Positions 473-24,578 of a DNA stretch of 45,130 bases are shown piece after piece. The DNA comes from an uncultured Methylococcaceae bacterium (GTDB lineage Bacteria; Pseudomonadota; Gammaproteobacteria; Methylococcales; Methylomonadaceae), in the NCBI GenBank assembly GCA_903934035.1, contig CAIZMK010000087.1:1-45130 (forward strand). The letters are read 5' to 3'. Positions within the stretch are counted from its first letter, which is position 1. Every line of letters begins with the position of its first letter. The notes beneath the pieces are model-generated. The model searched no databases, was not told where the DNA came from, and saw only the letters and a list, made by a program, of their open reading frames with translations. The translations under genes were made by a program, and so were the position numbers.

Positions 473-3202
473 TTATAGTGGTAATTTTTTCATCAGCTCT
501 AATGCACTATCAAAATCAAAACCACCTACAGCTTGTTGGATTTCTTTTAATAGTGGGTCAATAGTTGTTCCATGGGAACTTTGCAATAGTTCTTCTAATA
601 CTTCACCAGCACTGGTGTCGTCATCTTCTAGGAGATCTTTTAGTTGTTGGGTGAGTTTTTTAAAGGCTTTATCCGATATGGGATCCGTTGTTTTTGTTGA
701 TGAATTTTCTGAGACCAACGATGCTAAACCTTTAATCACAATATCAAGCTCAATTACAGTCAATGCTAAAAGGTCTAAAATAATGTCTTGGTTACTGCCT
801 TTATGACAAGCAGTTTCAAGTTTAGCGGCTGCCGCATAAAGTGCATTTGCACCAATGTTTCCAGCGGTGCCTTTTAAGGTATGTGCGGTACGAGCTTGGG
901 CTGCAGGGTCATCACTGCTAGCCGCTAATGTAAATAACTCTGCAAAATTAGCTTGTCCATCGTTAAACATAACGAGTTGTCGATGATAAAGCTTTATGTT
1001 GTTCATCGTGGTTGCCAGCCCCGTTTTCATATTGATGCCCGGTAATGTCTCGGGTAAAGTTAGTTCTGCTGAGGTTTTTTCTGGATGCTCGGCTACTTTA
1101 GGCTCTAAATTAACACTAGGCTTAGCAGGCCTAATCCATTTAGCCATGGTTTCAAACATGGATTGAAGATGCAATGGTTTTCCAATATGGTCAAACATGC
1201 CGGATGCTATGACCTTTTCTTTATCGCCTGCCATTGTATTAGCTGTCATGGCTATAATCGGAAGCTTTGCCCAGTCAGGATTTTTACGAATTTCTCTAGT
1301 CGCAGTAAAACCATCCATGATAGGCATTTGACAATCCATCAAAACGCCATCAAATTGCTCACCAGTATTTAGGATGTCTAGTGCTTCTTGGCCATTTTCG
1401 GCTAGCTTTATTCGAATGTCAGCGCTGCTTAATAGCTCTATAGCGAGCTCTTGGTTCATTTCATTATCTTCGACTAAAAGAATATAGGCTCCTCTAAGCA
1501 AAGCCATCATTTTTTCAGTGTTATCACTCTTGTCATCTGAAAGTTTTGCATCTGCGCCTTCATAGCCTAATGACTTGACGGTCTTCCTAAGCAGATGGCT
1601 GGCAATGATGGGTTTCATTAATACAGCCTGTAAATCAATACCGTGTTTCTTTGCAGATTCACGTGCATCATCCCTACTAAATGCAGTTACCATGATGTAA
1701 GCGGGTTGTTTAGATAAACTTAAATTTTCGGTGCGTTTAATGGTTTCAATGCCATTCATGTTAGGCATGCGCCAGTCTACATAAAGCAGTTCATAAGGTG
1801 AGCTCAGTTTATCTGCGATCATTAACATTTCTAGGGCTTGATGACCATTGTCTGTGATATCAACGACTAAGCCTAGTCCTTGTAACATTGAGGCCATGAT
1901 TTCTAGTGCCATCTGATTATCATCAACAACCAGTGCACGTATACCCTCAAGTTCGTTTGAGCCCCATAGCTGCATAGGGCTGATTTCAACGCTGTCGTTA
2001 ATACCAAAGCGAGCATGAAAATGAAATGTAGAACCTTGGTCAGGTACGCTTTCTACCCAAACATGTCCATCCATGAGTTCAACTAGCTTCTTGGTGATGG
2101 CAAGGCCTAAGCCAGAGCCGCCATATTTTCGTGTAGTTGATGAGTCTGCCTGACTAAATGATTGAAACAATTTGTTGCATTGTTCGGATGTCATGCCTAT
2201 GCCAGAATCTTGTACCCAAAAATGTAAGGTAAGGCCTTCAGTGTCTTCAGCAACAGATTCTATGCCGATAATGATTTGACCTTGGTCGGTAAATTTAATG
2301 GCATTATTACTAAGATTGACTAAAATTTGTTCAAGTCTAAGAGGATCACCTATTAGATGATTAGGTAAGTTTTTAGCTTGACTAAATAGTAACTCAAGTC
2401 CCTTTTCTTCTGCATAGATACCGACTAAGTTCACTAAGTTATCGAGTACATGATCAAGCTGGAAGTGAGTTTGCTCCAAGGTCATTTTGTCGGCTTCAAT
2501 CTTGGAGAAGTCTAGGATATCATTAATGATACCCAACAAATTTTCAGCGGCACGGCTAACACGTGCTATATAGCCACGTTGTTGGGCATTGAGATCTGTT
2601 TTAAGTGCAAGGCTAGTCATGCCAATAATCGCATTCATAGGTGTGCGAATTTCATGACTCATGTTAGCTAAAAAATCAGATTTCGATTGCGCAGCTTGTT
2701 CGGCAATGGTTTTGGCTTTATCAAGCTCTAGGTTTTTAGCTTGTAGGTTTAAAAACAAATCTTCACGAGAGTGATGATTGATGATGTCGCTTAGTTGATT
2801 AAAAATTTCAGCGTTAAAGTTTATGGTATTGAATTGATAATTCACCATTAGTGTAAAGATAAAATTTTCAATGATTAGTTCTGAAGAAAGTCTCCCCAAA
2901 GAAATACTAGTTAAGGTTTCTATGTTGGGATCTGATCCTATCGCTGAAAAAGCACATTGCAACTGGAGGCTATTACTATTTTTGGGAGCTATCCATAATT
3001 CTAATAACGGTTTATTTCCGGCCTTTCTAAGCCAACGACACAGCTCTGAAATCTCTGAGACCAAACGTGTGCTTGTTATTAAATCCAGTTTGAGTAAGTT
3101 CGCCAGTTCACGAACTTTATTTCGCGTATCAAACAGGGAAGCGTCATTGGTCAAATTAATTTGACCTAAAAAGTCTATTTGTTCCATTTTATTACTATGC
3201 AA
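473..3202 (-). CDS. Hybrid histidine kinase with RsbT-like N-domain, two receivers and Hpt
   Basis: Membrane-free, 909 aa, last gene of the stressosome operon. Residues about 25-95 resemble a small anti-sigma/RsbT-type HATPase domain, but the N-box Asn is replaced (ELCRW, W57), so it is probably not an active ATPase. HisKA has His183 (MSHEIRTP). The HATPase has N300, DSGIG (D332) and the GGSGLGL loop. REC1 is about 422-545 with D476, and REC2 about 573-690 with D623 and K675. The C-terminal Hpt has H774 (AHTLKG). All catalytic phosphorelay residues are present. The start overlaps the upstream gene by 28 bp; an internal ATG (Met6) would cut the overlap to 13 bp. Inference: it takes the stressosome signal through its N-domain and passes it along a His-Asp-His-Asp relay. 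No partner output regulator lies in the window. Confidence 0.88.
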
Positions 3203-4281
3203 GAAGCATCATCGTGAGTTTTGCCCAGAAGATCTACTAGGCGATAGGCGATAGTATTAGCATCCAGAAAACGAAGCTTAAGGGCTTCTTTTTTAATTAA
3301 TGATTCAGATAAGCCATCAGTGAACATAATAGCCATATCTCCCGGATTAAAGTGAGTTGATTGTTCAGTATAGCTAGGTAGGCGTTGTCCGAGTATGCCA
3401 TCACGAGAAACCCCTCGCCATTTTTTATCGTTAAATACGATAAGATTGGTATTACCTATGCCAGCATAAGTGACCATTTGTTTAGTAGGATCAAAAAAGG
3501 CTAAGCCCATTGCCGCACCAATAGTGCCTTTTGCGAGTTGATCAAGTTTAATCATTAGGTTAGAAAGATTTGATGACGCTATTTTCTTAAGACCGTTAAG
3601 TAACAGTAAAGCCATCTTATTTGCTTCTGGGCCATGACCGGTAGCATCAACAATACTTAGTAAATAACCTTGCTCTAGCGGGATGGCTAATACTTGGTCC
3701 CCTGAGACCCTATATCCTGGATAGGCGCGGGTACGATTACCAATTTCAAAATTGATGAGTGGCGATGCTTTGATCGAGTTAGCATTTCTAAATTCTACAA
3801 GTCTTTCTGAGGTTGAAGAATAGAAGGCCTTTGTTGACGATAAAACTTGAATCTTAGTATCAACTTTGATGTTTTTTCTTGCAAATACACAAGTGCCATG
3901 ACCCAGGTTAGAATGTATTTCAAAAGCATCGGCAATGCGTTTGACACCGGATAAGCCTAAGCCAAGTGTACCGCTAGAACTGAAATTCTCCTGCATGGCT
4001 TGTTCTACATTGTCAATACCAGGGCCTGTATCTGTTGCAAGCACTTCAATTTCTACAGTGCCAGGCCATTCATAAGAGCGTAGTTCTATATAGCCCGGAT
4101 TTGCATATTTAATAATGTTGCTAGCTAGTTCAGAAATAATAGTAGCAATTAATGATTTATCCACAGCGTTGGCGCCTGTTAAAGGTTGCCAATTAAGGGT
4201 ATGGGTAATTGCAATATTTAAGTCTATTTGTTCATTTATAAATAAGCGACAGTTAGTAGAACAAACGTTGTCTTGTAGCAT
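3175..4281 (-). CDS. RsbT-RsbX fusion: stressosome switch kinase plus PP2C/SpoIIE phosphatase
   Basis: 368 aa with two domains. Residues 1-135 are an RsbT-like HATPase serine kinase with N-box E51/N55 ([10 protein letters not shown]), DTGPGI (D84) and a Gly-rich lid at 104-112 (GTLGLGLSG). Residues about 170-368 are a compact SpoIIE/PP2C phosphatase with metal-ligand motifs SGDQ (D195), VDATGHG (D212), TDGLSE (D322) and HDDAS (D357). In Bacillus, RsbT phosphorylates RsbR and RsbS and is released, while RsbX removes those phosphates; they are normally separate proteins. The position directly after rsbS supports RsbX rather than RsbU for the phosphatase half. No sigma-B or RsbW lies nearby. I am confident about the domains and less so about substrate assignment. 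Confidence 0.88.
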
Positions 4282-4283
4282 GG

Positions 4284-4667
4284 TCAGACTATGTCCTTTA
4301 TCTTATTTAAAACTCTGTCTATATCATCAAGTCCAGAGACGGTATTGATACCTGAGATATCAGCTCCTGCTGAGATTAAAAAAGCTACTACCCCCGCATT
4401 AAAGCCAGTGAAAACGGTTTCTGCGCCCATTAATTTAATCATGAGTGCGATGCTATGTAGGGCATTAAATTCCGTTAAATCTAATATGGAGATTGCAGAT
4501 AAATCAAAAATAACTAGGGCAATTCTTTGGGCTTTTATATTTTCCAATACCTCAGAATTTAATACAGAAATCATTTCTGGGGTGATGTCGCCTTGCAAAA
4601 TGATCGATAATCGATTATTTGTTTGGCTCATGGAAACGCCGCTGTGTTTAGATAAATCCAGGCTCAT
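4284..4667 (-). CDS. rsbS: RsbS-like stressosome STAS scaffold protein
   Basis: 127-aa single STAS domain between rsbR and the RsbT-X fusion. It aligns without gaps to my recollection of Bacillus RsbS from the DLS/DLT strand to KLMGA. At the phospho-acceptor loop, Bacillus has IDS(59)F while this protein has LDL(64)T(65): the Ser is replaced by Leu and followed by Thr. In the stressosome RsbS forms the core with RsbR and holds RsbT until phosphorylated, so the substitution matters. Met1 and Met13 are both possible starts and neither has a clear ribosome-binding site. Its end lies 2 bp from the next gene. A plain anti-sigma-factor antagonist is the alternative, but operon position favours RsbS. 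Confidence 0.78.
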   Translation of the reverse strand: MSLDLSKHSGVSMSQTNNRLSIILQGDITPEMISVLNSEVLENIKAQRIALVIFDLSAISILDLTEFNALHSIALMIKLMGAETVFTGFNAGVVAFLISAGADISGINTVSGLDDIDRVLNKIKDIV

Positions 4668-4689
4668 AGTAGCTACAGTTATTGATTAA

Positions 4690-5571
4690 TTAAGAAATAG
4701 TCACTTTGATCAATTTTAAAGCAATTTCAAAGGCGTCACGTAGTGTGGATGTTGATTTGATTTCCCCAACATCTACGCCCAGTTCAATGATGGTTCTAGC
4801 AATGGCAGGTGATATTCCAGAAATAATAGCTTCACAGCCCATTAATTGAGTGGCTTTGGTGATTTTAATTAATTGGTTGGCTACGGCGGTATCAACTGAA
4901 GCTACGCCACTAATATCTAAAATAAAAACTTTGGTACGTTCTTCAGCAATTTTAGAGAGTGACTTATTCATGATGTCTTGGGCGCGACTGGAATCTAAGA
5001 TACCAAGCAACGGTAATAGCAAAATGCCCTCCCAGATAGGTGTGACAGGGGTAGCCATTTCTATCATGGTTTTATGGCTTTCTTCCAGACGAGCATTATG
5101 GATATGAGTAATAATGTCCATGACTAGGTAAGTGTCAAGAAAGAAATGTTTTGTGACTGCATTAGCGATGTCACCGATATTTGCAGGCATAGGCTTGATA
5201 TTCCAAAGTTCATCAGCTATCAGTTGAAAAGCCTTAGAGACACCTGCAAAATAAATATCATTGGGTAAACCAATCCGGGCATGGACTTCACCGATACGAT
5301 AACGATCGGTTACATACTGTTCATTGATATTAGCGGAAAAAAAACTTTGCCAGTAGCTAAGTTGTTGCTTTTTTATTTGCATTAAGTTATTGCTATTTGT
5401 GCCAAAAAACATTGAAAATTCTTTTTGTGTGACTAACCATGCATACCATTTTTCAATGAGTTCGGGTAGGAAATCGCCAAGCAATGTACCTGCAGCCCGT
5501 ATGAGTTTAAAGTCTGTGTCCGTGATGACAAATTTATCTTTGAGTTCTTCTAGGTTTATTTTTTGATCCAT
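4690..5571 (-). CDS. rsbR: Globin-coupled RsbR stressosome sensor
   Basis: 293 aa, first gene of the operon. The N-terminal half (about 10-160) is a protoglobin/globin-coupled-sensor fold with proximal haem His97 in the motif RIGEVHARIGLP. The C-terminal STAS domain (about 175-290) begins with the typical RsbR linker (TPVTPIWEGILLLPLLG). Both threonines phosphorylated by RsbT in Bacillus RsbR have counterparts, T228 (SVDTAVA) and T260 (IARTII). By family knowledge such globin-RsbR proteins sense O2 or other haem ligands. AGGA lies about 10 nt before the ATG. rsbS starts about 22 bp after its stop. Confidence 0.9.
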   Translation of the reverse strand: MDQKINLEELKDKFVITDTDFKLIRAAGTLLGDFLPELIEKWYAWLVTQKEFSMFFGTNSNNLMQIKKQQLSYWQSFFSANINEQYVTDRYRIGEVHARIGLPNDIYFAGVSKAFQLIADELWNIKPMPANIGDIANAVTKHFFLDTYLVMDIITHIHNARLEESHKTMIEMATPVTPIWEGILLLPLLGILDSSRAQDIMNKSLSKIAEERTKVFILDISGVASVDTAVANQLIKITKATQLMGCEAIISGISPAIARTIIELGVDVGEIKSTSTLRDAFEIALKLIKVTIS

Positions 5572-6354: not shown

Positions 6355-8340
6355 TTAGCGGTTTAGCCATTGACTCAAGGTAGACAATAATTCATTTACA
6401 TTAATGGGTTTACCTACAAAATCATTCATGCCTGCAGCGAGACTGTGTTGTCGTTCTTCATCAGTTACGCTGGCACTTAAAGCGATCACGGGCAACTTTG
6501 CATAGTGTGGATTTTTTCGAATCTCGGCAGTGGCTTGATAGCCATTCATGATGGGCATGTGTAAATCCATTAACACCACATCAAAATCCTGTTTCTTTAA
6601 AGCACTTAAGGCTTCAGAGCCATCATTAGTCAATACTATGAGGCTGGCTCCTTGACGTTTTAGCACTTGATGAATGATCTTCTGGTTGAAGCTATCATCT
6701 TCCACGACTAATATTTTAATGCCATTCAAGGCTTCTGTTTCTATACGCATATCAACTGTTGCGGTGTTGATTGGTGGTGCTTTAATGCTAGTTAGTTGCG
6801 ATGTAGGCGTTGTTGGCAGTAGCACCTCAAAGCTAAAACAACTGCCTTCCCCTAGTTGGCTGTCTACTTTAATTTGACTCTTCATCAACGCGACTAAGTC
6901 TTGACTGATGACTAAGCCTAAACCTGTGCCTTCAAATTTTCTAGCATAACCATCGTCCACTTGGCTAAAAGGCATAAACAATTTATCTTGTTGATCTTTG
7001 GCTATACCAATACCCGTATCAGTGACGGCAAATAATAATCGTGCTTGCTGCTCATCGAGTTCTAGTAAGCTAATGTTGAGCGATATCGAACCTTGTTGGG
7101 TAAATTTGATAGCATTGCCAAGTAGATTAGTGAGTACTTGTCTTAAACGAAAATGGTCGCCGATTAGGTGTTCAGGCACTTGCTTTTCTATGTTTATGCT
7201 CAAAGTTAAGCCTTTGCTTTGAGAAATTTTTATGAATAAATTATAGAGAGTTGTTCGCAAGTCATGCAGATTAAAAGGGGTCGGGTTAAGTCCCATTTTT
7301 CCTGCTTCGAGTTTTGATAAATCTAAGATGTCATTAAGGATGACCATCAGATTATTTGAGGCGGTATTGATGTTTTTTAAATAATCGCTCACTTTTTGCG
7401 GCATATCATAAAGCAAAGCCAGTTCTGAAAAGCCTATGATGGCACTCATGGGCGTGCGAATTTCATGAGACATATTAGCTAGAAATTGTGACTTAGTTTT
7501 GCTTAAGTTTTCAGCACGTTCTTTGGCTGCTAGAAGTAGCGCTTCGTTTTGTTTGCGTTCGGTGATGTCAATAAAGCTGACTACGCAGCCGATAATTTCC
7601 TCGTTATTTTTGATCGGATGTGCTTCGTATTGTACTGGGAAACTAGTGCCGTCTTTACGCCAGAATACCTCTGTTTCATCCGAGGAATTTGAATGACCTT
7701 GCAGGGCATTGTATATCGGGCAAAGTTCTGCGTTATAAACAGAGCCATTTGCATGGGCATAGTGAAAGAGTTGGTGGTTGTTTTTGCCGAGAACTTCTTC
7801 TTGTGACTCATAACCCAGCATAGTTAATGCTGATGCATTCATAAAAATACAATCACCGTTAATGCCAATTCCGTAGATACCTTCGCCAGTGGCATTAAGA
7901 ATTAAATCTAGGCGTAAATGGGCTTGAAGGTTTTTGTCTTTTAAGGAGTCGTTCGCAGCTTTGATCCTTAGATGATTTTTTACACGTGCCATTAATATAG
8001 CCGGGCTGATCGGCTTAGAAATATAGTCGACCGCGCCTAATTCTAAACCAAATTGCTCGTCTTCAATATCAGACAATGCGGTTAAAAATATGATCGGGGT
8101 ATGGGCTGTTATAGGATTTTCTTTAAGTCGTTTACAAACCTCGAAGCCAGAAAGTCCAGGCATCATAAGGTCGAGTAAAATCAGGTCGATGCTGTTGTCG
8201 CTCTGAGCAATTGCAAGTCCTTTTTCGCCATTAATTGCCGATTTGACCTTGTAGTAGTTTCTGAGTAATCCTGATATTAGATTAATAATGTCAGGAGAGT
8301 CGTCTATGATGAGAATGACTGGTTTTAAGGTTACGCTCAT
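6355..8340 (-). CDS. Hybrid histidine kinase REC-PAS-HisKA-HATPase-REC
   Basis: 661 aa, soluble, no membrane segments. REC1 is about 7-125 with D57 (LILLDLMMPG) and K109 (SKP). A PAS domain spans about 143-262, ending in the PAC-like FIDITERK. HisKA has H292 (MSHEIRTP) and the HATPase has N409, DTGIG (D441) and GTGLGL. REC2 is about 540-660 with D592 (VVLMDLHMP) and K644. A kinase with receivers at both ends typically takes a phosphoryl or docking input at REC1 and needs a separate Hpt protein to pass the signal on; none is adjacent, although the Hpt of the 473-3202 kinase is a candidate. It has the same strand as the stressosome operon but is separated by 0.8 kb of repeats, so it is probably a separate transcript. 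The PAS ligand is unknown. Confidence 0.88.
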   Translation of the reverse strand: MSVTLKPVILIIDDSPDIINLISGLLRNYYKVKSAINGEKGLAIAQSDNSIDLILLDLMMPGLSGFEVCKRLKENPITAHTPIIFLTALSDIEDEQFGLELGAVDYISKPISPAILMARVKNHLRIKAANDSLKDKNLQAHLRLDLILNATGEGIYGIGINGDCIFMNASALTMLGYESQEEVLGKNNHQLFHYAHANGSVYNAELCPIYNALQGHSNSSDETEVFWRKDGTSFPVQYEAHPIKNNEEIIGCVVSFIDITERKQNEALLLAAKERAENLSKTKSQFLANMSHEIRTPMSAIIGFSELALLYDMPQKVSDYLKNINTASNNLMVILNDILDLSKLEAGKMGLNPTPFNLHDLRTTLYNLFIKISQSKGLTLSINIEKQVPEHLIGDHFRLRQVLTNLLGNAIKFTQQGSISLNISLLELDEQQARLLFAVTDTGIGIAKDQQDKLFMPFSQVDDGYARKFEGTGLGLVISQDLVALMKSQIKVDSQLGEGSCFSFEVLLPTTPTSQLTSIKAPPINTATVDMRIETEALNGIKILVVEDDSFNQKIIHQVLKRQGASLIVLTNDGSEALSALKKQDFDVVLMDLHMPIMNGYQATAEIRKNPHYAKLPVIALSASVTDEERQHSLAAGMNDFVGKPINVNELLSTLSQWLNR

Positions 8341-8755: not shown

Positions 8756-9532
8756 TTATTTCATGAAATATTTGGTATATTCTTGAGCATTGGTTAATTT
8801 TTGTTTAATGAATTCTCCTGCGGGATGTGTATCTAAATCCGTCCATGATAAATTAGAATCTTGCTCATCCTGAGTACTATAAAATCCCATATCCCAGTTA
8901 GCAAAATGTCGTTCAGTTGTTCGTTCGAGTACAAGTAAGGTTACATTTGTATGGCGTTTATCTTTTTGTATATGATCAAAAAATAGTGAGGTAACAGCAC
9001 TAAAATTACCTTCTAAAACTTGCAGCCACCAACCTTTGTTGTAGAGTAGAACACCTGTAATCTCAAGTTCTTTATTAATTTTACGTGCTACTTTTAAAAT
9101 ATCTATTACATCAGAAGCTTTAGTTTCACCTACAGCATGGCTACCGTAAATTAAAGTAAACAAGGGGTTTTTTTCTTCGAATACGCGTTCAGGTTTGTTT
9201 ATATTGTCCAACCAGGAAACTAACTTTTTAATATCTGTTTTAGAGCTTAAATAATCAACTCCATCCTGTGATAAATTACGGTTGATTGAAGTATCAAGAA
9301 CTAGACAAGGGTATGAAGACTTATGAAGAAATTCATTCAAACGACTGGCTTCATCAGCGTTAAGCTCAATATTAATAATGATTGCATCAACATCAGGAGA
9401 TGTTGCAATTGATCCAAAAATATCTTCTATATTGTTGAAAATTGACGGCACATGCCCCCAACAATAAAGTGCAACGGCTAAAGCATTTGTTTCTTCATTT
9501 TCTAAAACCACGATGTTATGACTTTTTTGCAT
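8756..9532 (-). CDS. Pseudo-receiver/BLUF blue-light photoreceptor
   Basis: 258 aa from the ATG at 9532, chosen because AGGAGAAGG lies directly upstream; a longer frame to 9616 has no such site. Residues 123-221 form a BLUF flavin (FAD) domain with the key residues present: Y129 (LIYGSH), N153, Q171 (LQVLEG) and W213 (NWDMGF). The N-terminal 110 residues look like a receiver domain, but the phospho-acceptor position reads IIIN(54)IEL, Asn instead of Asp, so it is probably a pseudo-receiver. No enzymatic output (EAL, cyclase) is attached, so signalling is presumably by protein-protein contact. The divergence of domain 1 makes 'REC-like' less certain than BLUF. It follows a LOV gene on the same strand, 135 bp away. 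Confidence 0.88.
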   Translation of the reverse strand: MQKSHNIVVLENEETNALAVALYCWGHVPSIFNNIEDIFGSIATSPDVDAIIINIELNADEASRLNEFLHKSSYPCLVLDTSINRNLSQDGVDYLSSKTDIKKLVSWLDNINKPERVFEEKNPLFTLIYGSHAVGETKASDVIDILKVARKINKELEITGVLLYNKGWWLQVLEGNFSAVTSLFFDHIQKDKRHTNVTLLVLERTTERHFANWDMGFYSTQDEQDSNLSWTDLDTHPAGEFIKQKLTNAQEYTKYFMK

Positions 9533-9535
9533 GAC

Positions 9536-9548
9536 CCTTCTCCTCGTT
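9536..9548 (-). promoter_or_regulatory. Strong RBS shared with the secreted-protein gene
   Basis: The 13 bases AACGAGGAGAAGG precede the BLUF start codon here and occur identically at 10428-10440 before the gene at 10443. This site decides the BLUF start. The shared leader hints at common origin or coordinated translation of the two genes, but a consensus RBS could also match by chance. Confidence 0.6.
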
Positions 9549-9667
9549 TTTTTTGTTATTAAAGTATTAACTAATGTTCCAGTATAAGTACAGTTTGTAT
9601 AGCTTGGCGAAAACATAATTGTTAGTAATGTTAAGCAGAGTAAAAAACTGATCTTATAAATTACTAT

Positions 9668-10123
9668 TTATTTGGATAACATGGCGATAATCGCGTTCAA
9701 CTCCCTTATTTGATTATCTGCTTCAACTTGCTCAGTCACATCATGTTGAACACCCAAATAGTAAATAATCCGATTTTTTTTATCTAACAAAGGGGTGATT
9801 TTTAATCGATTGTAAAATAGCGAGCCGTCTTTTTTGTAGTTTCTCAGCATAACCTCAATCGATTCCTGTTTCTTCATCGCTGCTGATATTTGTTGACTCG
9901 CTTGTTGATTTCGATCGTCAGCTTGCAAAAAACGACAATTAAAACCGATAGTATCTTCTTGACTAAACCCCGTTAGTTTTTCAAACGCTTTATTGGCATA
10001 GACGATTGGGGCATCAGGTAAATCTGGATCTGCAAGTACTACTCCGTTGACACATTCATCAAGAATGTCAGTTAATAAACGTGGTATGAGCCCCCCAGAA
10101 TCTTTTTCAGCTACAAAAAGCAT
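9668..10123 (-). CDS. Short LOV-domain blue-light photoreceptor (copy 1)
   Basis: 151 aa, a PAS/LOV core with short N- and C-terminal helices and no effector domain. The flavin adduct motif is GFNCRFLQ with C63; FMN-contacting residues N95, N105 and Q126 are in place (LRNYKKDG, FYNRL, YLGVQ). Short LOV proteins act through light-dependent dimerisation or partner binding. It is clearly a paralogue of the LOV protein at 12044-12499, sharing most of the core. CGGAGA precedes the start. The gene is divergent from the secreted repeat protein at 10443 and upstream of BLUF on the same strand, so LOV-BLUF may be one transcript. Confidence 0.93.
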   Translation of the reverse strand: MLFVAEKDSGGLIPRLLTDILDECVNGVVLADPDLPDAPIVYANKAFEKLTGFSQEDTIGFNCRFLQADDRNQQASQQISAAMKKQESIEVMLRNYKKDGSLFYNRLKITPLLDKKNRIIYYLGVQHDVTEQVEADNQIRELNAIIAMLSK

Positions 10124-10442: not shown

Positions 10443-10850
10443 ATGTATGTATTAAATAAAAAAACGGTTATAAAATTTACTTCATTGTTAGGCTTCCTAG
10501 CCGCTTTACAAATTAGTCCTGTTTCGGCTAATCCCAATGAAACAGCTGCCTGTGCTAGTCACATTCAAGAAAAAATCTCTTGGGACAATAACGGCCACGC
10601 AAAATGGGAACAGAAAAACATTGAGAAACTATGTAAAGGTACTTCAAGCCCCAAAGAACCAGGCGAATGCTTTAAAAAAGTTATGAGTGGTCATGTTAAA
10701 TGGGGAGAAGGTGATAAATGGGAATGGGAAAATGCAGTCAATTTATGTTCAGGTACAAATGATTCTGAGCAAACAATTGAATGCTTCAAGAAACAAGTTC
10801 ATGCTGGGACTGCCTGGAATGAAGCTATCACACAATGCCAAGCCAAATAA
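10443..10850 (+). CDS. Small secreted protein with three Cys/Trp repeats
   Basis: Not a family I recognise. 135 aa with a signal peptide (basic start, hydrophobic 11-24, likely cleavage after VSA-N at about 29-30). The mature part contains three repeats, each bounded by two cysteines with a Trp inside: C37-C64, C76-C102 and C114-C132. The repeats share CFKK...W...A(V/I)..C and an LC(K/S)GT spacer. Six Cys suggest three disulfides in the periplasm or outside the cell. It is preceded by the exact RBS AACGAGGAGAAGG and followed by a hairpin, so it is probably monocistronic. Its position between two LOV genes makes a light- or oxidation-related role possible, but that is only context. Confidence 0.8.
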   Translation: MYVLNKKTVIKFTSLLGFLAALQISPVSANPNETAACASHIQEKISWDNNGHAKWEQKNIEKLCKGTSSPKEPGECFKKVMSGHVKWGEGDKWEWENAVNLCSGTNDSEQTIECFKKQVHAGTAWNEAITQCQAK

Positions 10851-11489: not shown

Positions 11490-11582
11490 ATGTTGAGTTA
11501 CCCTCAACCGGGAGATGTATCGCAATGCCAATTAAATTTTCTTTTGATTCCTCTGCACCCATATCAGGTGAAGCTTCAATAA
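11490..11582 (+). CDS. Possible 30-codon upstream ORF overlapping the SRPBCC start
   Basis: ATG at 11490 with AAAGG about 8 nt upstream opens a 30-codon frame that runs out of frame into the first 58 bases of the SRPBCC gene. A small hairpin (GTTGAG/CTCAAC) lies at its start, just before the GGGAG RBS of the real gene. It could be a leader peptide that couples or damps translation, or just chance. Confidence 0.2.
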   Translation: MLSYPQPGDVSQCQLNFLLIPLHPYQVKLQ

Positions 11583-11995
11583 AAATTAATAGATCTATCG
11601 CTGATGTTTTTTCCTTTATTGGTGAACGATTTTATGAGAATTATCCAAAATGGGCGCCAGAAGTTGTGGAATTACAGCCTTTAGACGGCGATCAACTCTT
11701 TGTCGGGGCTAAAACAAAACAAGTTAGAGAAGATCAAGGTGCCCTAGTTGAATCAGTATTCGAGATTACTGAATATCAGCCTGTTGTACAATTAATTTTT
11801 AAAGGTATAGGTGAGCCTTATAAACATTCTTATTTTCTTCAGTCGGAAGATTTAGATATTACGGAATTAACTTTTTGTTTTGAATTATCTGAGATAGAAG
11901 TTTTTATGCGACCTTTTCAAAAGTTGATTCGTGCCTCTATCGAAGATGGCGCTGAAAATACTGTAGAAAATATAAAAAATTTGATGCTCTCTTGA
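11525..11995 (+). CDS. SRPBCC-family (START/Bet v 1-like) ligand-binding protein
   Basis: 156 aa, cytoplasmic. The pattern matches the SRPBCC superfamily: the opening strand GEASIKINRSIADVFSFI, a WAPEV region, then long beta strands, and a C-terminal amphipathic helix (PFQKLIRASIEDGAENTVENI). Members bind hydrophobic ligands such as lipids or polyketides in a deep cavity. The start is supported by GGGAG 10 nt upstream. First gene of a plus-strand operon; the LOV gene follows 48 bp later. A lipid ligand would suit the hydroxylase two genes downstream, but that is inference. Confidence 0.75.
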   Translation: MPIKFSFDSSAPISGEASIKINRSIADVFSFIGERFYENYPKWAPEVVELQPLDGDQLFVGAKTKQVREDQGALVESVFEITEYQPVVQLIFKGIGEPYKHSYFLQSEDLDITELTFCFELSEIEVFMRPFQKLIRASIEDGAENTVENIKNLMLS

Positions 11996-12043
11996 GCCCA
12001 TTAAGCTAGTCCTATGACTAAATTGTAAGAATTGGAGAAAAAT

Positions 12044-12499
12044 ATGCCTTTTATTGTTGAAAAAGATACCGGATTAATTCCACAAGTTTTATCAGCTATT
12101 TTAGATGAGTGTGTTAATGGTGTCACCTTAGCTGATCCAGATATGGAAGATGCACCTATTGTTTATGCTAATAAAGCCTTTGAGCGTTTAACAGGTTATG
12201 GTCAAGAAGATATAATCGGTTTCAACTGCCGTTTTATGCAAGGCGAAGATAGAGAACAAGATGCACGACAAATAATTTCTGAAGCGATGAAAAATTCTGA
12301 AAGTGTGGAAGTGACTCTTAGAAATTATAAAAAAGATGGGACTTTATTTCATAATCGTTTAAAAATAACTCCGTTATTTGATAAAAAACATAGAGTTATT
12401 TATTATCTTGGCGTCCAATTTGATATTACTGAACAAGTCGATGCTAGTAATGAAATTAAAGAACTCAATTCCTTAATAGAAGCAATGAGCCCCAAATAA
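12044..12499 (+). CDS. Short LOV-domain blue-light photoreceptor (copy 2)
   Basis: 151 aa from the ATG at 12044, which has GGAG 6 nt upstream; the longer frame begins with TTG inside that site and is unlikely. The core has the adduct Cys62 in GFNCRFMQ and flavin contacts N94, N104 and Q125. No effector domain; it ends in a short helix (NEIKELNSLIEAM), usual for dimerising short LOV proteins. Paralogue of the protein at 9668-10123. Its stop is only 5 bp before the hydroxylase gene, so the photoreceptor is transcribed with a membrane di-iron enzyme and MsrPQ. Confidence 0.93.
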   Translation: MPFIVEKDTGLIPQVLSAILDECVNGVTLADPDMEDAPIVYANKAFERLTGYGQEDIIGFNCRFMQGEDREQDARQIISEAMKNSESVEVTLRNYKKDGTLFHNRLKITPLFDKKHRVIYYLGVQFDITEQVDASNEIKELNSLIEAMSPK

Positions 12500-12504
12500 A
12501 CGTT

Positions 12505-13338
12505 ATGAATGCGACAGAAACTGTAAGTACTAACGGCGGTCTCTATTTCAATGAGGCTCTATTTGGTCTGGCAATCATTGCTTTTATAGTGTTGGTAATT
12601 ATGGAGAAACGCCATCCTTTTAGAGCGTTTCCGGCTAAAATTTTCAAAGAGTCTTTTGTTACCAATACAACAGCATTCTTGGTTAACAATTTAATATTGA
12701 GTACCTTGCGTGCTTCTTCATTATTCTTAGTTGCTCAGCAATTTGCTACCCATGGCTTATTGAGTGGTATGGAAAATGGGCCTATTAAATGGCTGTTAGC
12801 ATTTGCTTTTTTTGATTTGGCCATTTATCTGTGGCATTTAGTCAGTCATAAATCTGAATATTTGTGGAGATTTCATAAAGTCCATCACAGTGATAAGGGT
12901 TTTAATGTTTCTACTGGTTTTAGATTTCATGTCTTTGATTTACTGATAGAAATAGTCTACAAATGCGTATTTGTAGTTGTGATTGGTGTGGATGCCTATG
13001 TGGTATTATCTATTGAAATTGTTGAATTATTCTTCATATTATTTCATCACGCTAATATCCGAGTACCTAATGAAGATTTAATTTCAAATGTATTCATCAC
13101 ACCTTCATTACATAGAACACATCATTCCAAAAAACGTTCTGAACATGATAGTAACTATGGCATCGTTTTTTCATTATGGGATCGAATGTTTGGTACTCGT
13201 AAGGAATTGGTGCCAGAACAAATTGGTTTAGATATCATTAATGCTGATAACTTCATTCAATTATTCTCTTTGGCTTTTATCACTGAAGTTAAGTTAAGAA
13301 AACTTCTAGGATGGATTCCAAAAGGTAAGAAAAAATGA
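12505..13338 (+). CDS. Fatty-acid hydroxylase/sterol desaturase family membrane di-iron enzyme
   Basis: 277 aa with about four to five membrane segments. The histidine clusters of the family are complete: HLVSH (111-115), HKVHH (124-128), HH at 181-182 and HRTHH (203-207). Such enzymes use a non-haem di-iron centre and O2 to hydroxylate or desaturate lipids; the substrate cannot be read from sequence. It starts 5 bp after the LOV stop without a strong RBS, and its last codons overlap the MsrP start (ATGA), so translation is coupled on both sides. An electron donor is not obvious, though MsrQ-like haem proteins are encoded in the same operon. Confidence 0.85.
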   Translation: MNATETVSTNGGLYFNEALFGLAIIAFIVLVIMEKRHPFRAFPAKIFKESFVTNTTAFLVNNLILSTLRASSLFLVAQQFATHGLLSGMENGPIKWLLAFAFFDLAIYLWHLVSHKSEYLWRFHKVHHSDKGFNVSTGFRFHVFDLLIEIVYKCVFVVVIGVDAYVVLSIEIVELFFILFHHANIRVPNEDLISNVFITPSLHRTHHSKKRSEHDSNYGIVFSLWDRMFGTRKELVPEQIGLDIINADNFIQLFSLAFITEVKLRKLLGWIPKGKKK

Positions 13339-14291
13339 TCATCAAAACTCATAAAAGTATTCTTGGTTCTGAAATTACTGATCCTTTAGTTTTTAAGCAA
13401 CGTCGCCAGTTAATTAAGGCTATGTTAGCGTTAGGAATAACGGGTTCAGGAATCTATTCAGGTTTATCGATTGCTAATGAAGCCAAATGGCAGGATGTGA
13501 CTAAAGGCTATCAGCCCAAAGCATCTTTAACGGCCACTTCAGCAGAGATAGTTAAAAACCATACTAATTATTATGAGTTCACTTATAACAAAACAGATGC
13601 AACTACCCTGGCGCAAGCATTACCTATTGATCCTTGGTCGGTAGAAATTACAGGGGAAGTTGAGAAGCCGGGCACTTATCATTTAGAAGATATTTTAACT
13701 CAGCAAACTCTACAAGAATATATCTACAGATTTCGCTGTGTTGAAGGTTGGTCTATGGTGGTGCCTTGGATGGGCTTTCCCTTAGCTAATTTATTAAAAA
13801 AAGTTAAGCCTTTGTCCAGTGCTCAATTTGTGAAATTTACCACCTTGCAAGATTCTAAGAGTATGCCTAATCAAGCAGTAAATAGTATGCTGGAATGGCC
13901 TTATGTAGAAGGGTTACGAATCGATGAAGCGATGCATCCTTTGACTATTTTGGCATCCGGTATGTACGGTGAGGCTTTGCCTAAACAAAATGGTGCACCT
14001 TTAAGGTTAGTAGTGCCTTGGAAATATGGCTTTAAAAGTATTAAAGCCATAGTAAAGATTGAGCTGCTTAAAAGAGCGCCTTTAAGTACTTGGAGCAAAG
14101 CGGCTCCTAACGATTATGGTTTTTACGCCAATGTCAATCCAGATGTTCCACATCCTCGTTGGAGTCAAAGTAGCGAACGCGTTTTAGGTGCTGGATATTT
14201 TACACCGCGTCGAAAAACAGAGTTATTTAATGGCTACGCTGATGAAGTTGCTGCATTGTATAGCGGCATGGATTTACGGCATTTCTTCTGA
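13335..14291 (+). CDS. msrP: MsrP: periplasmic methionine-sulfoxide reductase, Mo-cofactor subunit
   Basis: 318 aa, sulfite-oxidase fold. A twin-arginine motif (KQRRQLIKA, R23-R24) precedes a hydrophobic stretch, so it is Tat-exported with its molybdopterin. The Mo-ligating Cys135 lies in YRFRCVEGWSMVVPW, which matches E. coli MsrP (YedY) closely, as do the segments YPYVEGLR-DEAMHPLT, NGAPLRLVVPWKYGFK and YGFYANVNP. It reduces protein Met-sulfoxide in the periplasm with electrons from MsrQ. It overlaps the hydroxylase stop by 4 bp and MsrQ by 1 bp. Assignment is strong; the coupling to a LOV gene is the unusual part. Confidence 0.95.
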   Translation: MIIKTHKSILGSEITDPLVFKQRRQLIKAMLALGITGSGIYSGLSIANEAKWQDVTKGYQPKASLTATSAEIVKNHTNYYEFTYNKTDATTLAQALPIDPWSVEITGEVEKPGTYHLEDILTQQTLQEYIYRFRCVEGWSMVVPWMGFPLANLLKKVKPLSSAQFVKFTTLQDSKSMPNQAVNSMLEWPYVEGLRIDEAMHPLTILASGMYGEALPKQNGAPLRLVVPWKYGFKSIKAIVKIELLKRAPLSTWSKAAPNDYGFYANVNPDVPHPRWSQSSERVLGAGYFTPRRKTELFNGYADEVAALYSGMDLRHFF

Positions 14292-14947
14292 TGGTTTTGC
14301 GTAATATAAAGCCGTATACGTTATGCTTTAGCATTTGTTTATTGCCGTTATTAGGCATAATTATCGATATGCTCTTCGGTAATTTAGGTGTCGATCCTAT
14401 CTTATCGTTGCACATCCGCTTAGGCGATTGGTCTTTGCGTTTGTTATGGCTAACCTTGTGTATTACCCCCTTACAAACGGTGACCCAATGGCGCGGTATG
14501 TCACAATATCGAAAAATGTTAGGTCTATACGCTTTCTTTTATGCGAGTTTGCATGTCTTAGTTTATTTATGGATGGACCAAGGCTTGGTATGGAGTGCGA
14601 TTACTAGGGATATTATTGAAAGTTCTTATATCTGGTTTGGTTTAATAGCTTTTTTGCTAATATTTTTATTGGCAATAACTACGCCATTGATAATGGTAAA
14701 AAAGCTGGGTAAAAATTGGAAAAAGTTGCACCGCTATATTTATATAGCTTCTATAGCCGTTATTATTCATTATTATTGGCAACTTAAAGGGAATATGGCA
14801 GAGCCTTTGTTTTATTTGCTCATATTGACTTTGTTATTGGCCTTTAGACTAGCTGTTTGGTTTAAAAATCGTAAGTTTGCAAAATTGATGATTCCTACAA
14901 CCCGAAAGATAAAAGTGCTAAAGGCCGAGTCATTAACTGAAGATTAG
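14291..14947 (+). CDS. msrQ: MsrQ: haem b quinol-dehydrogenase membrane subunit
   Basis: 218 aa, close to E. coli MsrQ (YedZ, 211 aa), with about six membrane helices of the ferric-reductase-like type. H88 (YASLHVLVY), H147 (KLHRYIY) and H160 (VIIHYYW) correspond to the haem-binding histidines. It passes electrons from the quinone pool or a flavin reductase to MsrP across the inner membrane. Its ATG overlaps the MsrP TGA by one base (TGATG). Last gene of the five-gene operon. Confidence 0.94.
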   Translation: MVLRNIKPYTLCFSICLLPLLGIIIDMLFGNLGVDPILSLHIRLGDWSLRLLWLTLCITPLQTVTQWRGMSQYRKMLGLYAFFYASLHVLVYLWMDQGLVWSAITRDIIESSYIWFGLIAFLLIFLLAITTPLIMVKKLGKNWKKLHRYIYIASIAVIIHYYWQLKGNMAEPLFYLLILTLLLAFRLAVWFKNRKFAKLMIPTTRKIKVLKAESLTED

Positions 14948-24468: not shown

Positions 24469-24578
24469 GGTGATCGTATTGGTCCTCTCGCAACGGTACT
24501 CTGTAAACCCCGCCAGGTCCGGAAGGAAGCAACGGTAGCAGTCGTTTCGTGTGCCGGGATGTGGCTGGTGCGATTACC
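24469..24578 (+). ncRNA. ffs: 4.5S RNA (bacterial signal recognition particle RNA)
   Basis: It carries the invariant domain IV core CAGGTCCGGAAGGAAGCA with the GGAA tetraloop, the flanking CGCAACGGTACTCTGT and GTGTGCCGGGATGTGGCTGG, all as in E. coli 4.5S RNA. The ends are set by the closing helix GGTGATCG (24469-24476) with CGATTACC (24571-24578); true ends may differ by a few bases. It pairs with Ffh to target membrane proteins to SecYEG. CATAAT just upstream could be a -10 element, but then transcription would begin inside the closing helix, so the promoter is unclear. ffs before dnaX is a common order. Confidence 0.93.

Follow-up and report, generated by a model that had tools for sequence, protein, structure and literature searches.

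The subject of this study is a five-gene operon in a window of 45,130 nucleotides (the whole stretch analysed, contig CAIZMK010000087.1 of assembly GCA_903934035.1, from an uncultured Methylococcaceae bacterium), in which a gene for a predicted blue-light receptor is joined to genes for a membrane hydroxylase and for the methionine repair system MsrPQ. The genes follow one another on the plus strand, starting with an SRPBCC protein of START/Bet v 1 fold, our candidate partner of the photoreceptor (11525–11995; Pfam PF10604, Polyketide_cyc2, 34.7 bits), and continuing with the 151-residue short LOV blue-light receptor LOV1 with its Cys62 (12044–12499; PAS in Pfam, YtvA_fam matched in its LOV part at 158 bits), a membrane hydroxylase of the fatty-acid hydroxylase superfamily (12505–13338; PF04116, FA_hydroxylase, 94.9 bits), MsrP, a molybdenum-dependent methionine sulfoxide reductase of the periplasm with a twin-arginine leader and Cys135 (13335–14291; Oxidored_molyb, NCBIfam NF003767 at 436 bits, cut-off 207) and MsrQ, the haem-b membrane subunit (14291–14947; Ferric_reduct, NCBIfam NF003831 at 155 bits, cut-off 130). 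A first-pass annotation had proposed these genes in this order with spacings of 48, 5, −4 and −1 bp; open reading frame coordinates together with the Pfam and NCBIfam matches bear out the order, and the spacings hold at the window. For LOV1 the open reading frame list gives a TTG start at 12032, and the ATG at 12044 is preceded by GGAG. A scan of the plus strand of the operon found no terminator-like site inside it, promoter-like sites occur at chance level (25 seen, 26.6 expected), and at gathering scores no Rfam family matches the operon. MsrPQ repairs oxidised methionines in the periplasm, and a di-iron centre is known for the fatty-acid hydroxylase superfamily.

Conservation was followed in two sets, both picked via the hydroxylase, so that the counts for SRPBCC, LOV and MsrP are conditional on its presence. 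The first comprises 61 genomes, namely that of the window and 60 relatives (35 genomes in the window's genus, 26 outside it), and a hydroxylase orthologue of at least 69% identity occurs in 26 of these including the window's own, 25 within the genus and one outside. Around it the order is the same for SRPBCC (24/24), LOV (25/25) and MsrP (25/25), counting loci whose contig reaches far enough (a contig edge bounds two loci at the start and one at the end). Thus, the expectation that the order would be kept in relatives stands wherever the orthologue occurs, although 10 of the 35 genus genomes have none. Among the hydroxylase-less genomes some are incomplete and others 95–100% complete (for example G013, G015 and G016). 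The second set derives from a scan of named genomes that gave 585 candidate loci by hydroxylase, the best 80 of which were retained; these are partly from the same species and favour close relatives, five are too short upstream and six downstream, and denominators count loci with enough DNA. The closest hydroxylase, in L041, is 99% identical to that of the window. SRPBCC lies upstream in 75/75 of these loci and LOV in 74/75, and MsrP follows the hydroxylase in 63/74, with MsrQ in 62 (L066 stops inside MsrP). The order holds down to 49–69% protein identity (the minimum for each protein over 60 five-gene loci), and no other flanking gene family occurs in more than 23 of the 80 loci. Chance adjacency or an annotation artefact, to which we assign a negligible probability, is refuted by these SRPBCC and LOV counts and by the intact key residues described below. 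The earlier claim that LOV and MsrPQ belong together is upheld by the order around the hydroxylase orthologue and by MsrP in 63 of the 74 testable loci; as judged from gene order, the tight unit is SRPBCC-LOV-hydroxylase, and MsrPQ is a frequent, detachable addition. Of two cultivable strains, Methylomonas sp. LW13 (L056) carries the full set of five, and Methylotuvimicrobium buryatense 5G (L115) the core with no MsrPQ next to it. In L115 and L117, of Methylotuvimicrobium type, the SRPBCC-LOV pair stands in tandem duplicate before the hydroxylase, which further supports the pair as a unit. The first-pass annotation had also held the last four genes to be probably translationally coupled. Their tight spacing is real at the window but not general: among the 80 loci, hydroxylase and MsrP overlap in 6 of 65 measurable pairs, LOV and hydroxylase lie within 10 bp in 7 of 79, and only the MsrP/MsrQ overlap is common (49/58). 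Any coupling of all four is, on these spacings, a local, lineage-specific tightening.

We then compared key residues in alignments with minimum scores of 150 bits for LOV, 200 for hydroxylase, 200 for MsrP and 60 for MsrQ, which include 10 LOV and 6 hydroxylase places from outside the 80 loci, all from outside Methylococcales except three in the Methylotuvimicrobium genome L177. LOV residues N61, C62, R63, N94, N104 and Q125, to which the adduct cysteine and flavin-contact roles are assigned, are invariant at 90/90 places, as is F64, with Q66 present at 88. Twelve hydroxylase histidines are invariant (86/86), MsrP Cys135, the molybdenum ligand, is present at 65/65 places, with KQRRQLIKA in the leader, and the four MsrQ histidines are conserved at 62/63, the remaining place being not aligned. 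LOV1 matches PAS families only in Pfam and carries no effector domain, its 158 bits to YtvA_fam lie below that model's cut-off of 250, and its best sequence matches in the PDB include 3sw1; this and similar entries we take to be Pseudomonas short LOVs. With adduct cysteine and flavin-contact residues and without an effector domain, LOV1 is by its predicted features a short LOV. An AlphaFold2 model of the SRPBCC protein (mean predicted local distance difference test score 92.2) ends in a 30-residue C-terminal helix (126–155), and a fold search in the PDB returned 361 matches at E ≤ 0.001, among them PYL abscisic-acid receptors, cytokinin-binding proteins and other ligand binders, with a query template-modelling score of 0.52–0.77 in the top 50 at 9–16% identity. 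The modelled protein is a helix-grip START/Bet v 1 fold with a long C-terminal helix; no PDB sequence match was found for it at E 0.01. The hydroxylase model has a confidence of 85.2, and the PDB gave no match for this protein, either by fold (E ≤ 0.001) or by sequence (E 0.01).

An even draw of 369 Gammaproteobacteria genomes (the class sample) was searched with SRPBCC and LOV profiles. The SRPBCC profile finds 11 places in 8 genomes, seven of them adjoining this LOV. The LOV profile, with at most 10 candidates scored per genome, finds eight places at 190 bits or more (next score 142.6), seven of which lie beside SRPBCC, the exception being a second LOV gene of the window, LOV2. In the LOV tree a sister clade of 12 short LOVs (support 100/98) stands apart from the SRPBCC-linked LOVs, though the fork between the two has weak support (86/49). 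The SRPBCC-linked group also takes in a single long stray row, which comes from the window's genome. A MerR/LitR-like gene was detected within 1.5 kb at 6 of the 12 sister-clade places and SRPBCC at none; one of these genomes, G221 (L185), has its MerR/LitR-like gene with YbgA and a dehydrogenase nearby. In contrast, no MerR/LitR-like gene was detected within 1.5 kb of the eight SRPBCC-type LOV places of the class sample (Fisher tests, SRPBCC p 0.0001 and MerR p 0.04, uncorrected for kinship, as is the Fisher test below). SRPBCC is therefore found in the position expected for LitR, the known partner. At least 24 plasmid records match this LOV, all below 60% identity, and give no sign of plasmid spread.

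This contrast bears on the main rival explanation, in which matters proceed as in Pseudomonas: lit LOV would disable a distant MerR repressor of LitR/CarH type, and SRPBCC, hydroxylase and MsrPQ would be light-induced targets with no physical link to LOV. In Pseudomonas, PmSB-LOV acts as an anti-repressor of PmlR2, according to an excerpt of PMC9758184. A LitR/CarH-like MerR gene occurs in the flanks of 15 of the 80 loci, 12 of which belong to records under the name Methylomonas. In L099 and L101, TGTACA is repeated three and four times, respectively, every 11 bp in the region 80–117 bp upstream of SRPBCC. These arrays, with their CarH-like spacing, presumably resemble LitR/CarH operators. In the window's genome one distant MerR-B12 protein was found (29–30% identity), on another contig. 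However, no class II LitR stands beside LOV in the window, the window like the class sample offers no MerR/LitR-like neighbour of an SRPBCC-type LOV, and a scan for exact copies of TGTACA, the LitR operator being the degenerate TRTACA-N12-TGTAYA, finds none within 300 bp upstream of the operon start there. Moreover, MerR matches in the window's genus are all distant (28–31%), and such a scheme leaves unexplained why SRPBCC and LOV pair where hydroxylase and MsrPQ are absent. We regard it as rather improbable. LitR as a local LOV partner, considered since loci of Methylomonas have such a gene, was dropped for the window's genus in view of those distant matches.

A search of 398 genomes across the phylum matched the SRPBCC profile in three, namely the window's own, G382 and G596, the last from another class. 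Within the family of G596, 3 of 149 genomes match, all of one genus (g422), at six places. LOV adjoins SRPBCC at four of these, a divergently oriented hydroxylase (52–57% identical) at five, and a cytochrome b561 with an Oxidored_molyb enzyme at three; G596 and G884 have the molybdoenzyme together with the core, and in G817 it lies with SRPBCC alone, the core being elsewhere. The molybdoenzyme reaches 71 bits against the MsrP cut-off of 207, and its partner belongs to PF01292, not to the MsrQ family. The different parts and orientation suggest a separate assembly, and a similar association built from different parts favours function over descent of a single operon. It also speaks for another proposal of the first-pass annotation, that light acts on flavins and haems and LOV directly tunes membrane electron flow via MsrQ, perhaps through FMN, since in a second class the core again has a molybdoenzyme and a haem-b membrane protein as neighbours, although these parts are non-orthologous. 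Yet the core lacks an adjacent MsrP at 11 of 74 loci, the SRPBCC-LOV pairs of G382, G402, G325 and G214 have no such neighbour in the stretches examined, and no sequence feature tying LOV to MsrQ was found, which leaves direct tuning very unlikely. Subunit A of ammonia monooxygenase/particulate methane monooxygenase (AMO/pMMO; PF02461) occurs in 11 of the 369 class genomes, in 3 of the 6 bearing the SRPBCC-LOV pair (the window's own, G308 and G382, as against G402, G325 and G214) versus 8 of the 363 others (Fisher p 0.0004, and 0.006 without the window's genome). In genus g422 it is present in G596 and G884 and not in G817. The link of the module to methane and ammonia oxidisers is suggestive.

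Taken together, we hold with about even confidence that SRPBCC-LOV-hydroxylase-MsrPQ would form a blue-light-responsive module for photoprotection of the cell envelope. Blue light would drive formation of the LOV adduct, and lit LOV would act on SRPBCC, which would occupy the place of LitR in the Pseudomonas short-LOV systems. The LOV-SRPBCC pair would then switch on or feed the hydroxylase, which would oxidise a membrane lipid or terpenoid, while co-expressed MsrPQ would reduce periplasmic methionine sulfoxide arising from light-driven oxidants, the purpose being protection of the envelope and the monooxygenase membranes in lit water. A photoprotective role draws on the conserved order, the specificity of the SRPBCC-LOV pair, its rearranged recurrence, the invariant key residues, the light and repair genes in the flanks, the AMO/pMMO association and the behaviour of Campylobacter jejuni, in which msrP is up under violet-blue light (as given in part of PMC9426514). 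A bolder version, which we put forward tentatively, has the short LOV take a lipid-binding START protein rather than a transcription factor as its direct partner: lit LOV might cause SRPBCC to hand a lipid to the hydroxylase or release it for that enzyme, so that in methane oxidisers lipid chemistry would be under post-translational control by light, and repair modules of molybdoenzyme/haem-b type would have been recruited to it at least twice.

Several observations weigh against such a module. A hydroxylase orthologue is missing from 35 of the 61 genomes, including 10 of the 35 in the genus, and MsrP is absent after the hydroxylase in 11 of 74 loci (L083 Methylobacter luteus, L103, L105, L106, L108 Methylovulum, L109, L112, L115 Methylotuvimicrobium, L117, L119 and L120 Methyloglobulus). 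At 4 of its 11 class places SRPBCC has no LOV next to it, the pairs of G382, G402, G325 and G214 have no hydroxylase in the stretches examined, and 8 of the 11 AMO-bearing class genomes have no SRPBCC-LOV pair. L120 and L212 carry SRPBCC and hydroxylase together without LOV, hinting that these two may function by themselves. To this list belong the lack of a close LitR in the window's genome and of a photolyase match there, the latter from one query without positive control and so weak evidence of absence. A further rival is shared regulation only, in which the genes are co-located against photo-oxidative stress, LOV senses for other targets and the enzymes act singly. In its favour, MsrPQ is detachable (63/74), the genes do not overlap in most species, and the repair neighbours are mixed. 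It is nevertheless unlikely, since SRPBCC, LOV and hydroxylase are almost always linked in the 80 loci and linkage persists, rearranged, at 4 of 6 places in g422.

The flanks of the 80 loci were surveyed for up to 10 kb (many contigs being shorter), with one or two representatives taken to name each family and HflC assigned by eye. Besides the MerR-B12 LitR/CarH-like regulator they hold photolyase (23 loci), YbgA/DUF1722 (22), FtsH (15), HflK/HflC-like proteins (14), a sigma-70 factor (14), DUF1499 (13), a TIGR01777-type dehydrogenase (12) and lipocalin (11). Loci of Methylomonas type (L054–L114) show a long conserved light-and-repair island made up of LitR-like MerR, sigma-70, HflK-HflC-FtsH, the operon, dehydrogenase, photolyase, lipocalin and YbgA. 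In G019, a complete genome belonging to the window's genus, the operon is preceded by photolyase and followed by YbgA. Photolyase was dropped as a part of the module given that single-query result in the window's genome, its 23 flanks notwithstanding.

Directly ahead of the operon lies an inverted repeat, GTTGAG-N5-CTCAAC (11492–11508, plus strand), a possible 5'-leader hairpin upstream of the SRPBCC ribosome-binding site that ends 16 nt before the start codon and is the sole copy in the window (0.04 expected at up to one mismatch). Many Methylococcales have a hairpin or inverted repeat about equally far ahead of the SRPBCC start, and a strong hairpin is present in 43% of all 79 upstream regions versus 13% of mononucleotide shuffles. 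In 36 hand-picked rows of the 79, a choice that inflates both figures, double changes occur in 6 of 7 pairs (reached by 6/500 shuffles) and 88.8% of cells pair (0/500 shuffles). It may serve either as an element of the RNA or as an operator in the DNA. Divergent from the operon lies LOV2 (9668–10123, minus strand), 71% identical to LOV1 and joining it in the tree (93/83). On these values LOV2 arose by a recent duplication of LOV1 and has evolved fast, and L041 is the one locus of the 80 in which it was seen as a separate gene on the opposite strand. Next to LOV2, a BLUF blue-light receptor is encoded (8756–9616, minus strand; PF04940 at 91.3 bits, residues 152–244), with about 150 residues preceding the BLUF domain and an uncertain start codon. 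Further left (473–5571 and 6355–8340, minus strand), beside BLUF and LOV2, protoglobin-STAS and HATPase-SpoIIE genes, which we take to be stressosome-like, and large hybrid histidine kinases make up what is, by gene content, a second signalling cluster. A small protein at 10443–10850 (plus strand), secreted-looking by eye and without Pfam match, has relatives near the operon in 7 of the 80 loci, and a bacterial small signal recognition particle RNA lies at 24477–24573 (plus strand).

Short LOVs occur widely among bacteria and make up 13% of LOV proteins, as stated in an excerpt of PMC4416707, and according to Maruyama et al. 2022 (PMC9758184) no partner of a short LOV had been found before their LitR. 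The present module offers a second candidate partner, SRPBCC, together with concrete outputs. Ammonia monooxygenase is described as inactivated by light in a portion of PMC9797979, and inhibition by light is discussed for lake methanotrophy in a portion of PMC12211021; a conserved blue-light module makes the light response of methanotrophs testable by single-gene deletion. The set of genes kept together suggests a light-damage defence in many methane-eating bacteria. The first-pass annotation knew of no described operon joining LOV and MsrPQ, and a search of the open-access literature, covering titles and abstract starts of the matches listed and few subscription papers, agrees with it, finding nothing that joins LOV with MsrP, SRPBCC or a fatty acid hydroxylase.

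Compared with known systems, the hydroxylase resembles the fatty-acid hydroxylase superfamily in its PF04116 match and 12 conserved histidines, while its only NCBIfam match, OlsE, stays at 94.6 bits against a cut-off of 475, so that it is not identified as an ornithine lipid hydroxylase. SRPBCC shares the fold of Bet v 1/START binders such as the PYL receptors, and at 9–16% identity no ligand or function is carried over. MsrP and MsrQ resemble the known MsrPQ operon, both proteins exceeding their NCBIfam equivalog cut-offs and their genes overlapping, but here a photoreceptor gene is part of the same operon. A further MsrP, 48–61% identical, is encoded elsewhere in eight relatives (G001, G002, G003, G008, G017, G019, G026 and G032), the window's genome having a single copy; from these second copies the light-linked MsrP looks like a distinct paralogue. 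The likeness to Pseudomonas short LOV with class II LitR lies in the related short LOV sequence and in the photolyase- and dehydrogenase-type genes near the Methylomonas copies, the light-inducible PmSB-LOV/PmlR2 region holding a photolyase and a short-chain dehydrogenase (excerpt of PMC9758184). In contrast, the neighbours here are SRPBCC and a membrane hydroxylase instead of LitR, with MsrPQ attached, and the LOV of the window falls outside the 12-member clade with MerR neighbours, across the weakly supported fork. The operon is thus likely to encode a variant of the short-LOV photo-response, with SRPBCC as the likely LOV partner and hydroxylase and MsrPQ as its probable outputs.

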